The notes below the pieces were generated by a model that was not told where the DNA came from, did not search any database, and saw nothing but the letters and a program-made list of their open reading frames with translations. A program made the translations under genes and the position numbers. Below are positions 1,768 to 57,844 of a stretch of 64,000 bases of DNA, one piece after another. Position 1 is the first letter of the stretch; every line of letters starts with the position of its first letter. This DNA comes from an uncultured Clostridia bacterium. GTDB lineage: Bacteria; Bacillota; Clostridia; Christensenellales; Borkfalkiaceae. Location: positions 1 to 64,000 of the forward strand of contig CANREM010000007.1 of assembly GCA_947629675.1 (NCBI GenBank), in the 5' to 3' direction.

Positions 1768-1976
1768 CCACTTTTTAACTGCGGCACCGAATGGATGCCG
1801 CAGTAATTTATATATGCGTGATGTGGATGCAAAACGTATGAATATTTTTACGAATTTATTCTAAAATCCAACGAAAAAATATTCTAAAAATATCCCGTTC
1901 AATTTCTTGAGAACAAATGACAAGATAAAGCCGATATGATACCATAACATCGCAAATTTTCGACAATGGTGAAGCT

Positions 1977-4900
1977 ATGACAAAATCAAGACCCGCTGTT
2001 TGTCTCCTTACCCTCGTTTTCGTCTCCTCGCTCTTTCTCGGAGGAGTGAGTCCGGACGCCCTTATGCGGCATGCGGAGGCTGCCGAAACTTCCTCGGAAG
2101 AAACCACGTCCGATACGTTGCCGACGCCTCAAAGCTCGGGCATGGTACGCCCTGAATCGCTCGCTGAGGGTCTGTCGCGCAAAAGTTTCGAGGAGATCGA
2201 AGGCCGTCGCGTGACTCTTCGTCAGCCCGTGATGGATGTCACCGACCGCAATGTGGCGCGTGATGAAACCACCGTTTTAAGTGACGTGTTCCGATTCATC
2301 GACCCCGACACACATGAATTCTATCAAGGGGAAGGCGAGGAGTACGCGCAGATCGACTTTGCCGCCGAGCATGCAAAATATGAGGCTCAAAAGATCGCGG
2401 ACGGTACACACGTGAAAAAGGAATACCCCGTCTATCCGAAGAAGGGCCTCGATAAGGGCGCGGACTTCTATTTTTCCAATTTCACAAAATACATGCTTTT
2501 GCGTCAAACCTGGTACTATCGCGGTCATTCCATGGCTCCCGCAGATGAGGCGGGATTTACGGATGAGTTCAAAAAACACCCCGCGGCGGACGGCATTTAT
2601 GGAGGGATCGATAGGAGCGAGAGGGCGGTCAGCAAGCACATCGTTTCCGATCCCGTCTACCGTTCTCCGCTCACGACGGGACTCTATCTTCCTGCCGGCG
2701 AAGTCGTCACGGTCACAGTGAGCGGACTAAAAGAGGGACAAAAGGTACGTCTTACCACCCATCAACAGGATTCCCTCGGCTATGACGGCTCCATTCCCGA
2801 TGCCGATCAGGCAGCGGTAAACAGCGATCCCACATATAAGAACTTAAGCAGCACAGAGAGATATTTCCGCTATTGGGATAAAAAGCTCATCGAAGAGGCT
2901 GTGGCGGCAAAAAAAGAGGGTCGCTCTCCCGAATATGACAAGCTAGCCTTCAATCTCATGCCGCAATGGCGCGATCAGAATCAAAAGGTCCCCTGCATGG
3001 GAAATATCTATGACTTCGAGCATGATGGCGAATATCAGATCGGCAGTATCTACGGCGGCCCGCTCTATTTGCAGCCCACGGACGGCACGGTCGATCTTGT
3101 GATCACGGGCGCAGTGGAAACGCCGCACTTCATTCTCGGCGTGACGACCAAGGAGGAATTCGAAACCTATCTCCGCGAAGCTCCCGGCCCCATTGCCACC
3201 CTCGACGTCGAGAACGGCCAGCTCGTCGGTTTTTCCGAATATATGGCAAAGACCGACGATATCGAAAAGGTCGCCTACTTCTGGCACTCTGTCTTTGCCA
3301 TCAATTCCTCCCTCAACGGCAGGGCATATAATTACAATATTACGATGGCTTACGATATGCACGTTCCCGCAGGGGAAGCCGTTGCCCTTAACTCCTCCTT
3401 CTGTGCGCAGCCATACGGCTGGTTTGAGGCGTGCATGAACTATGAAACACTCACCACAAAAGGGAATTGGGGGACTTTCCACGAACTCGGGCATGTGCAG
3501 GCAAAGACTTACGGCGTAAATTGGGGCATGTGTTCGCGTTGCTCCGGAAGCGGCGTGGACGGCGAAGTCTGGAACAACACGCTCATCATCCTCATGTATT
3601 CCATGCTCTGCAATATGGATCCCCGCGTGGTGCAGGTGGAACACGGCGAATTCACCCATCCCTTTACCGTGGTCGACCGCTCCATGAAGACCGACCAAAA
3701 TGTCGTGGATTATCATGGGTTCAACAGCGGGAAATCGCCTCACTTCGACCAGCTCTCCCTCTATGCGACCCTCATCCATTCTTTCGGGCCGGAACGCTTT
3801 GTAGACTTCTTCTATACCTATAACGTGCAACCGGTCTATTGCGATCAGCCCTCGAGCGATCCCATCATCAAATCGCGCGCGGACTTTATCTATCGCATCG
3901 GTCTCGTCGACCATGTCAACATCTTTGATTGGGTCAATAAGTATTATCACGGAAATGTGACGAAAGATGACTTTTCCGAGGAGCAGTGGGAGTATCTCTC
4001 CCTTCTTCCGGATTTCTGGCCTGTGGCCTATCGCTGGGCGAACGGGATCGACGGCAATGAAACGGCGAGAAAGTACGACGTGGACGGCAAGTATCCGACC
4101 GTCTTTGACCTTTCGGAGGGGAATATCGTTTCCCCCGAGGAGTTTGAGATCGTCGATGTCACACAGCCCGCACACGGCACGCTTGTCTATGACAAGACGG
4201 GCGAACGCGTCACCTATACCCCGCCCAAGGAGATCACAGAGGAGGACAGCTTCGACATCGTCGTCATGTCGGCGGGGGAGCGGCTCGTCACCCTCAACGT
4301 CAACCTCCGTCTGAACTACCGCGGCACCTATGCCGAAGTATGGAAGCTCAACGGAGAGGCTTCCGCCAAACAGAGCGTGGACGCTGCCCTCGAGGAGATC
4401 GGAGTGCGCGCTCCCGACCGCACCGAGGAAAGCAATGTCGCGGGCAAGGCGACCTTCCAGGCGGCGAGTACAGAGCGCGAATACTATCATCTCCGCTTCC
4501 GCTTTAACGCGGCGGAGGAGGGACTGCACACCTTCTATCTGAAGGCAGACGATGCCTCCCGCGTGGACTTCAGAAAGGACAGCGAGGATGCAAATGTTGT
4601 CGGCACCCTTTATACGACGCAAGACAGACCCAGCTACGAACAGAACGGCAAGGTCGAGATCACACTCAAGAAGGGGGAGGCCGTCTATGCGGATTGCCAC
4701 CTCGTCAATTGGGGCGGAAAGGGCTATCTGTATGTCGGTGTGAAACTCCCCGGGACGGATACGATCGTAGACATACCCGCCTCCTATCTCTCCAATGCCG
4801 CCGCGAGCGATGAAGATCTCGCAAAGGCGGACGATTTCAAAGGTTGGCAGCCGGAGTTTCTCGACAGCATCAAGGATACGAGTTTTGACTATCAGCCGGA

Positions 4901-55829: not shown

Positions 55830-55859
55830 TTGCAAATTTCTCCCGCCTTGTGCTATACT
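55830..55859 (+). promoter_or_regulatory. Promoter driving the structured RNA / lipoprotein leader
   Basis: TTGCAA-N18-TATACT. Confidence 0.65.
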
Positions 55860-55863
55860 GACA

Positions 55864-56020
55864 TTGCGACACAAATGAATATTTTGTTGATAATGGGCTA
55901 TACCATGGGCATAGGTGTATCCTCTTTTTCCCATTTTCAACCGAAGGAAAAATCATTTGTGTCGCAACAATATGGGATACTACTTACGCGGCGTCCCGTA
56001 TTGGGGCGTCTTTTATTTTA
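55864..56020 (+). ncRNA. Candidate structured RNA or attenuated leader: long nested hairpin followed by intrinsic terminator
   Basis: 15-bp perfect outer stem (55864-55878/55953-55967), inner 11/12-bp stem (55886-55897/55930-55941), apical 6-bp stem (55899-55904/55914-55919), then 8-bp hairpin 55990-56010 with T-rich tail. Confidence 0.55.
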
Positions 56021-56113
56021 TTCGCCCCTCATCCCGAGGGCGTTTATTCACCCCTCATCCCGAGGGCGTTAGCCCGAGCGGATCTTTCCCGAAAATTTTT
56101 TGGAGGTATTCCT

Positions 56114-57844
56114 ATGAAGAAGAAGTTTTGGCTCATCCTGCTCGCCCTTGCGAGCGCACTCTGCCTTGCTTTGGGTCTCGCTGCCTGCGGCGGAGGCGGG
56201 CCGAAGGAGAAGAAGGTCGCTCTCGGCGATTCTCCCGAACAGGTCGTAAAGCTCCTCGGCGAGCCATACGAGGAAGAGAGCAGCGAGACCCACTATGTGT
56301 ATCTTGGCAGCAATTACCTCTCTTTGCTGAAGAGATCGGCGGAGCTTGAAGAGCGTATGCTGAATGTGAAGAACGAAAAGGAGTTCGAGCAGATCTTCCG
56401 GGAGATGGCGAAGATCGAGACGACGCTCGCATCCCTCGTCTACACCAGGACGGAGATCTCATTCAAAAAGAATGAGGACGGCCAACTTGCCGTGAGCGAA
56501 GTTTGGTATGATGCCGCCTGTAGCGAAAACGCGCCCGAAAAGACGCTTGCAGGCGTGCTGCTCGACGGCGTTGAGAAGTGCTCTCATGAGGATCTCGTGC
56601 AGGGCACGATCGATGGCATCGGCATAACGGAGAGATATACCGACGGAAGCTATCGCACGACTCCGCTTGGAGATCGGGAAATTTCCTTTTACGCCGTAGG
56701 CAAAAATGTGACGTGGAATTGGGAGGACGATGGCGTCGAGCATACCCTTTCATCCTCCTTGAAGGCTTCCATCCCCCTTGGCATGGGGGCAACGGGGATC
56801 TATGGGAAGACGGGCGCATATACCATCCCCGAGGGCATGACCGAGATCGGAGACTATGCGTTCAGGGATTGCGATTGGCTCACGTCCATTGTGATCCCCG
56901 AGGGCGTAACTTTAATCGGAGAAAGCGCGTTCAGGAATTGCCGTTCGTTTACAAGCATTACGATCCCCGAAAGCGTGACCGAGATCGGAGAGTGGGCGTT
57001 CTATGGTTGCTATAAACTCGTGGAAGTTTGGAATTATTCCGACCTTTCGATTGAAAAAGGTGACATTACCTGTGGATATGTAGCGTATTACGCAAAGCAA
57101 GTCTACACGACGAACGAAGAGAGCAAGCAGACAGTGACCGATGATGGCTATATCTTCTATGAGGATGGCGCAAAGATTTATTTGATTGGCTATAAAGGGA
57201 CGGATACGAAACTTACCCTTCCTGCCAAAAGCCCGTGCGGGAAAGATTATGCCGTCAATGAATATGCGTTCTCTTATTGCAATTCGCTTAAAAGCATTGT
57301 GATTCCCGAGGGCGTGACCTCAATTAGAAGTTCTGCATTCGAGGGTTGCAGCGGGCTTGAAAGCGTTACGATCGGGAGCGGCGTGACCTCGATCGGATAT
57401 GGTGCATTCGTTGGTTGCAGCGGGCTGACGAGCATTTCGATCCCCGAGGGCGTGACCTCAATTGGAAGTTCTGCATTCGAGTTATGTCGCGGGTTGACGA
57501 GCATTACGATTCCCGAGAGCGTGACCTTGATCGGAGATCATGCGTTCTCAAATTGCACCGGGCTGACGAGCATTACGATTCCCGAGAGCGTGACGTCGAT
57601 CAGAAGTGCTACGTTCTATAATTGTAGCAAGCTGAAATCCGTTTACTATCAAGGAACTGCCGACGAGTGGGGGAATATTTCTATCGACAATACATATTCT
57701 GAAAATTCCTATCTCCTCAACGCCACCCGCTACTACTTTACCGAGGACGCGCCGACGGAGGAAGAGTGGGCGGAATGGGACTATTGGTGGCACTTCGATG
57801 AGACGACGGGAGAAGTCATCGAATGGGCAAAGCCGCAGGCCTGA
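56114..57844 (+). CDS. Lipoprotein with BamE/SmpA-like N-terminal motif and BspA LRR_5 repeats
   Basis: Lipobox LGLAAC; GDSPEQVVKLLGEPYEEES; repeated SxFxGCSGLxSITIPEGVTSIG. Confidence 0.88.
   Translation: MKKKFWLILLALASALCLALGLAACGGGGPKEKKVALGDSPEQVVKLLGEPYEEESSETHYVYLGSNYLSLLKRSAELEERMLNVKNEKEFEQIFREMAKIETTLASLVYTRTEISFKKNEDGQLAVSEVWYDAACSENAPEKTLAGVLLDGVEKCSHEDLVQGTIDGIGITERYTDGSYRTTPLGDREISFYAVGKNVTWNWEDDGVEHTLSSSLKASIPLGMGATGIYGKTGAYTIPEGMTEIGDYAFRDCDWLTSIVIPEGVTLIGESAFRNCRSFTSITIPESVTEIGEWAFYGCYKLVEVWNYSDLSIEKGDITCGYVAYYAKQVYTTNEESKQTVTDDGYIFYEDGAKIYLIGYKGTDTKLTLPAKSPCGKDYAVNEYAFSYCNSLKSIVIPEGVTSIRSSAFEGCSGLESVTIGSGVTSIGYGAFVGCSGLTSISIPEGVTSIGSSAFELCRGLTSITIPESVTLIGDHAFSNCTGLTSITIPESVTSIRSATFYNCSKLKSVYYQGTADEWGNISIDNTYSENSYLLNATRYYFTEDAPTEEEWAEWDYWWHFDETTGEVIEWAKPQA

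Follow-up and report, generated by a model that had tools for sequence, protein, structure and literature searches.

A class-wide family of putative transcription-attenuation leader RNAs upstream of surface-protein genes in Clostridia

A nested hairpin upstream of a lipoprotein gene

The window (the whole stretch of DNA analysed, 64,000 nucleotides) encodes on its forward strand a lipoprotein of 576 amino acids with BspA-type leucine-rich repeats, and the region immediately upstream of this gene contains a promoter, a long nested hairpin and an intrinsic terminator. The features of the region are listed below, where P1, P2 and P3 are the stems of the nested hairpin from its foot to its apex, PK is a pseudoknot, AT an antiterminator and T the terminator.

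55830 to 55859, + strand: sigma-70 type promoter from a consensus scan; -35 TTGCAA (55830-55835), 18-nt spacer and extended -10 TATACT (55854-55859) with an upstream TG
55864 to 55878, + strand: P1 5' arm, TTGCGACACAAATGA, one half of an inverted repeat; expected transcription start at about 55866
55878 to 55881, + strand: AAUA at the P1/P2 junction, mostly unpaired and conserved in genus, order and class
55886 to 55897, + strand: P2 5' arm, hypervariable in sequence and always complementary to its partner (partner-swap test)
55899 to 55904, + strand: P3 5' strand (fold, pair counts, swap test)
55912 to 55922, + strand: PK 5' strand, UAGGUGUAUCC, made up of the end of the P3 loop and the P3 3' strand, with the core GUAUCC at 55917-55922 (swap tests, compensated variants)
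55923 to 55929, + strand: U-rich tract 3' of the PK strand, a conserved pyrimidine tract
55930 to 55941, + strand: P2 3' arm (inverted repeat, pair counts, swap test)
55953 to 55967, + strand: P1 3' arm, TCATTTGTGTCGCAA (inverted repeat, pair counts)
55968 to 55977, + strand: AT 5' strand, CAATATGGGA (swap test; present in the minimum free energy fold)
55975 to 55986, + strand: PK 3' strand, GGATACTACTTA, overlapping the AT 5' strand (compensated variants, swap tests)
55990 to 56010, + strand: intrinsic terminator hairpin, of which 55994-56003 doubles as the AT 3' strand (pair counts)
56011 to 56022, + strand: U-rich terminator tail, TTTTATTTTATT (from sequence)
56102 to 56106, + strand: Shine-Dalgarno sequence GGAGG of the downstream gene (from sequence)
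56114 to 57844, + strand: lipoprotein gene (open reading frame; Pfam LRR_5, E 3.7e-65)

An earlier note on this DNA had described the promoter TTGCAA-N18-TATACT, a perfect 15-bp inverted repeat (P1), an inner stem with one mismatch (P2), an apical stem (P3; 55899-55904 with 55914-55919) and a terminator hairpin with its tail, and every one of these was recovered at its proposed position. The description was confirmed as correct but proved understated: beyond it there is a long-range pseudoknot (55912-55922 with 55975-55986) and an alternative antiterminator hairpin (55968-55977 with 55994-56003), and the element is multi-copy and distributed class-wide. Folding of 55860-56025 gave -54.5 kcal/mol by comparison with -36.2 (sd 3.9) for dinucleotide-shuffled sequences (z = -4.7), none of the 200 shuffles being as good.

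The distance from terminator to ATG in the window is unusually long at 92 nt, and this is due to a stretch of approximately 65 nt at about 56021-56085. The stretch is repeat-like (CCCCTCATCCCGAGGGCG...GAGCGGATC), and the orthologous locus L056 lacks it; similar CATCC-rich repeats occur near other copies of the element.

Copies across the class and the genes that follow them

BLAST comparison of the element with the rest of its genome, at the DNA level, located seven further places with 69-76% identity to the window element, each with its own promoter, stem and terminator, and each upstream of a start codon, mostly that of a lipoprotein-like protein. A covariance model (R1) built from eight of the copies in this genome raised the number of real, diverged copies to 11, including the element at 55864-56022 of the window; a twelfth match was discarded as the antisense of a palindromic stem, and antisense matches elsewhere that arise in the same way, such as L020, were also removed. 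These copies, seven further ones from BLAST and 11 in all from the covariance model, provide the comparative evidence that argues most strongly against a chance hairpin. Of the 37 genomes of the genus, 33 had one or more R1 matches, the maximum being 15 per genome.

A second model (R2), built from 98 copies, was positive in 95/396 genomes of the order (35/142 genera, from many families) and in 55/288 genomes of the class. In a further 298 genomes sampled from the phylum, just nine of them members of the class, R2 had no match at all, and this result serves as a specificity control as well. The named public records among the matches listed were 'uncultured Clostridia' metagenome-assembled genomes from rabbit gut. 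Nearly all copies of the family are preceded by the same promoter layout as in the window. Two strict patterns had zero matches in viral contigs; a relaxed pattern had ten, none of which was the RNA.

The earlier note recognised no known riboswitch, 6S, SRP or T-box signature, and this agrees with a search of the window and of 35 loci around copies (the window's own locus included), in which no Rfam 15 family was matched by the element at gathering or relaxed thresholds. The same searches did recover tRNAs and a separate T-box; relaxed cut-offs otherwise produced only chance matches (CsrB antisense, miRNAs). No description of the family was found in the literature, where an unannotated entry in the supplementary tables of earlier screens is possible.

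The position of the copies with respect to genes was informative. A co-directional start codon preceded by a Shine-Dalgarno sequence lies just downstream of 118/179 copies (66%), as against 8/179 when the direction was reversed and 4% for randomly chosen positions; a median of 22.5 nt (26 nt in an earlier, looser count) separates element and start, and some copies have no detected gene start nearby. The downstream genes often encode lipoproteins with BspA-type LRR_5 repeats or membrane proteins with zinc ribbons: among 114 downstream proteins, 33 have LRR_5 repeats of the BspA type and approximately 10 have zinc ribbons, with DUF6273, List_Bact_rpt or collagen repeats in others; a simple pattern detected a lipobox-like signal in 69/125. 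By eye, the proteins encoded after class-level copies in other families likewise include LRR-like surface proteins. At three class-level relatives (L306, L307 and L308) the leader is followed by short cysteine-rich proteins (..ECCCDECDYMMC..). The downstream genes are too varied to suggest a ligand.

In the window's own genome and in genome G009 the element is located about 2.5 kb upstream of lepA, with the lipoprotein gene adjoining the element. A regulatory link to lepA was rejected, as the element was present in the fetched flank of only 2/30 lepA loci.

Pairings, covariation and exchange between copies

A total of 192 copies were collected, and alignments were made of 98 genus-level and 35 class-level copies. 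Across the 98 copies P1 was 99% paired with 9/10 pairs changed on both sides, and the terminator 98% paired with all nine of its pairs changed on both sides; P2, P3 and T were also supported by the alignments, T being 98-99% paired. Cells with double changes numbered 561 by comparison with 148 in shuffles for the genus alignment, and 266 with 81 for the class alignment. Compensatory changes in the two main stems, which the earlier note had proposed as a check, are abundant in both.

The alignments had been fitted to the model, and a far less alignment-dependent partner-swap test was therefore added, in which each copy's strand was paired with its own partner and with the partners of other copies. 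The own partner was better for P1, P2, PK, AT and T in the genus, order and class sets, with 0/3000 permutations as good, a count that is not an exact probability given that the copies are phylogenetically related. For P2 the means were -15.4 kcal/mol (own) and -5.1 kcal/mol (swapped), the own partner being better in 95/95 copies. For PK they were -14.4 and -12.7 kcal/mol in the genus, -15.0 and -9.4 in the order, and -15.2 and -10.0 in the class; for AT, -13.8 and -7.9 kcal/mol in the genus (71/71 copies), -11.1 and -5.8 in the order, and -11.8 and -7.2 in the class. Two negative-control segment pairs showed no swap effect, which argues against relatedness of the copies as its cause.

The pseudoknot joins the P3 loop and 3' strand to the segment just 3' of P1 over 11-16 bp. 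Its core in genus-type copies reads GUAUCC/GGAUAC, compensated variants of which include GUAUCU/AGAUAC, and it is longer in other families, as in L239 (AAAAACGUACACUCUC/GAGAGAUGCGUUUUU, pairing judged by eye). The antiterminator pairs the segment after P1 with the 5' arm and loop of T. Conserved unpaired positions comprise the AAUA at the P1/P2 junction, a GGYA-type loop, the U-rich tract that follows the PK strand and the ACAA on the 3' side of P1; these are candidates for a binding pocket or base triples.

The copies form a structure family of six overlapping pairings placed before co-directional genes. The P3 3' strand is used in either P3 or PK, the PK 3' segment overlaps the AT 5' strand, and the AT 3' strand overlaps the T 5' arm. 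Mean energies in the genus set were -15.8 (T), -14.5 (AT) and -14.5 kcal/mol (PK), and those of the window copy were -14.2, -14.8 and -12.9 kcal/mol respectively. Given this overlap and these near-equal energies, the arrangement resembles a tuned attenuator; in some copies T and AT are weak or unequal.

At orthologous loci a whole P2 stem can be exchanged for another whose two arms are again complementary, the flanks, P1, P3 and the terminator remaining nearly identical. L027 and L028 have upstream flanks that are 94% identical, with identical promoter, P1, P3 and AT/T, and P2 arms that are unrelated to each other; L009 and L021 differ in P2 and have 94% identity across a 1.7 kb region that takes in the gene; and L011 has one type of interior and L035 another, the exchange extending over the whole interior. 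L050 and L061 are also among the genus-relative pairs with a replaced P2 or interior, and in the copies from the window's own genome P2 looks different in each by eye. An ordinary origin of such exchange would be gene conversion between copies or the repair of palindromes by template switching. Nine loci (L013, L027, L028, L029, L030, L031, L033, L036 and L065) have one upstream flank in common, and beyond the leader the genes differ in most cases, a pattern like that of a cargo-exchange hotspot. Tandem complete units before one gene, each with its own promoter, occur in L070 (1024 and 1290), L041 (1286 and 1501), L250 (840 and 1063), L299 (644 and 886), L309 (968 and 1181) and L313 (1954 and 2179).

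Proposed mechanism, alternatives and relation to known systems

Based on these comparisons, we consider it likely that the element belongs to an undescribed family of cis-acting leader RNAs that would act on transcription as riboswitches do, by attenuation. This reading is favoured by the class-wide homologues, the compensatory changes, the swap tests, the shared strands, the nearby gene starts and the lack of a conserved leader ORF. The family is probably an orphan riboswitch class; it combines a 5' leader position with a covariation-backed, aptamer-like fold and mutually exclusive structures of the kind found in expression platforms. The earlier note had left a choice between a candidate novel structured RNA and a leader of the 56114 lipoprotein gene with premature termination; both parts of that proposal are supported by the missing Rfam match and the compensatory changes, and the cis-acting leader is far better supported than a stand-alone RNA of about 150 nt, given gene starts at 66% of copies versus 4% at random positions and the conserved antiterminator.

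In the mechanism we propose, RNA polymerase would start at the foot of P1 and the P1-P2-P3 hairpin would form. The P3 loop and 3' strand could then pair over 11-16 bp with the segment emerging after P1, and this would open P3. If the pseudoknot is stabilized, presumably through binding of a signal that touches the AAUA junction, the U-rich tract, the GGYA-type loop and the ACAA linker, AT would be blocked and transcription would terminate; if it is not stabilized, AT would form and the surface-protein gene would be transcribed. We infer that the element is transcribed, that the switch works in this direction and that it responds to a small molecule or ion. A more specific proposal, which we offer tentatively as one that may hold, is of a new riboswitch class, confined to a single class of Clostridia that are mostly uncultured, which senses a cell-envelope or global signal, governs a many-gene surface-protein regulon by way of a strand-exchange pseudoknot and has its P2 actively exchanged between copies.

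The same attenuator could instead respond to an RNA-binding protein that acts in termination or antitermination, with no small molecule or ion as its signal. There are well-known attenuators with stems for terminator and antiterminator that respond to proteins, and the broad regulon and the small number of strictly conserved unpaired bases would suit such a factor; however, regulator genes are often found downstream of these attenuators and none was recognised among the listed downstream genes, and the obvious candidate, a NusG paralogue of the LoaP type, is absent, as there is one NusG per genome. We regard control by a protein as unlikely. A leader-peptide attenuator was rejected, as no conserved small ORF was found: by a loose rule, a Shine-Dalgarno-preceded frame of at least six codons is present in only 34/192 leaders.

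The complete tandem units, each with its own promoter, count against a simple leader, which needs none, and together with the promoter-to-terminator organization and the many copies per genome they would suit a self-standing, trans-acting small RNA gene that has been duplicated through the genome. Such a gene would have no use for an antiterminator that destroys its terminator, yet this is conserved class-wide, and the near-fixed distance of copies to co-directional gene starts also speaks against it; we consider this explanation very improbable. Least probable of all, in our judgement, is a mobile or recombining DNA element (a MITE or a cassette recombination site) with hairpins acting at the DNA level. 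The dispersed copies, the exchange of P2 or the whole interior at orthologous loci and the upstream flank common to copies with different downstream genes are all compatible with it, but the copies are far from identical while PK, AT and T maintain their pairing throughout the class, placement is gene-orientated and the relaxed viral-contig matches were not the RNA. The earlier note held that many dispersed identical copies would indicate a MITE; the structured-RNA reading survives this, as the copies are diverged (69-76% identity in the window's own genome), conserved in their pairs and orientated with respect to genes. Our verdict is that this is a real, class-wide and undescribed family of probable attenuation leaders.

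Through this family a large and poorly cultured gut lineage gains a well-supported regulatory RNA whose three-way switch is unusual, and dozens of uncharacterized surface proteins are grouped in one putative regulon. The signal, once found, could reveal a messenger or an envelope stress sensed by these bacteria; with the covariance model and a defined set of base pairs for mutation, the proposal can be tested directly.

By comparison with known systems, the family resembles the candidate structured RNAs of human microbiomes (PMC8040213) in its gut-microbiome origin and in that some of those lie directly upstream of genes; the main text of that study names no lipoprotein-linked motif, and unannotated overlap in its supplementary tables is possible. 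With T-box leaders (RF00230) it shares an attenuation leader in which an antiterminator competes with a terminator, but no copy scanned matched RF00230, and aminoacyl-tRNA or amino-acid genes do not dominate downstream. The separate T-box leader mentioned above lies in L041 at 1973-2190 (+) and scored 88.8 bits against a gathering score of 93. LoaP is a NusG paralogue, and LoaP or dfn-type antitermination leaders are likewise hairpin leaders of Clostridia and Bacilli that govern read-through; a LoaP-type leader is disfavoured by the single NusG-domain protein per genome, with no paralogue beside the core NusG.

The riboswitches for c-di-GMP are many-copy regulators of surface genes. Our family differs from these and from other Rfam riboswitches in having no sequence or structure match to them, and c-di-GMP itself is disfavoured as the signal, as GGDEF proteins are absent from the window's own genome with its 11 copies, from G009 with 15 element matches and from 21 of the 24 congeners searched. 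What the family has in common with the pseudoknotted, terminating riboswitches of the c-di-GMP type is a conserved fold in the 5' mRNA, alternative antiterminator and terminator structures, and many copies before surface-protein genes.
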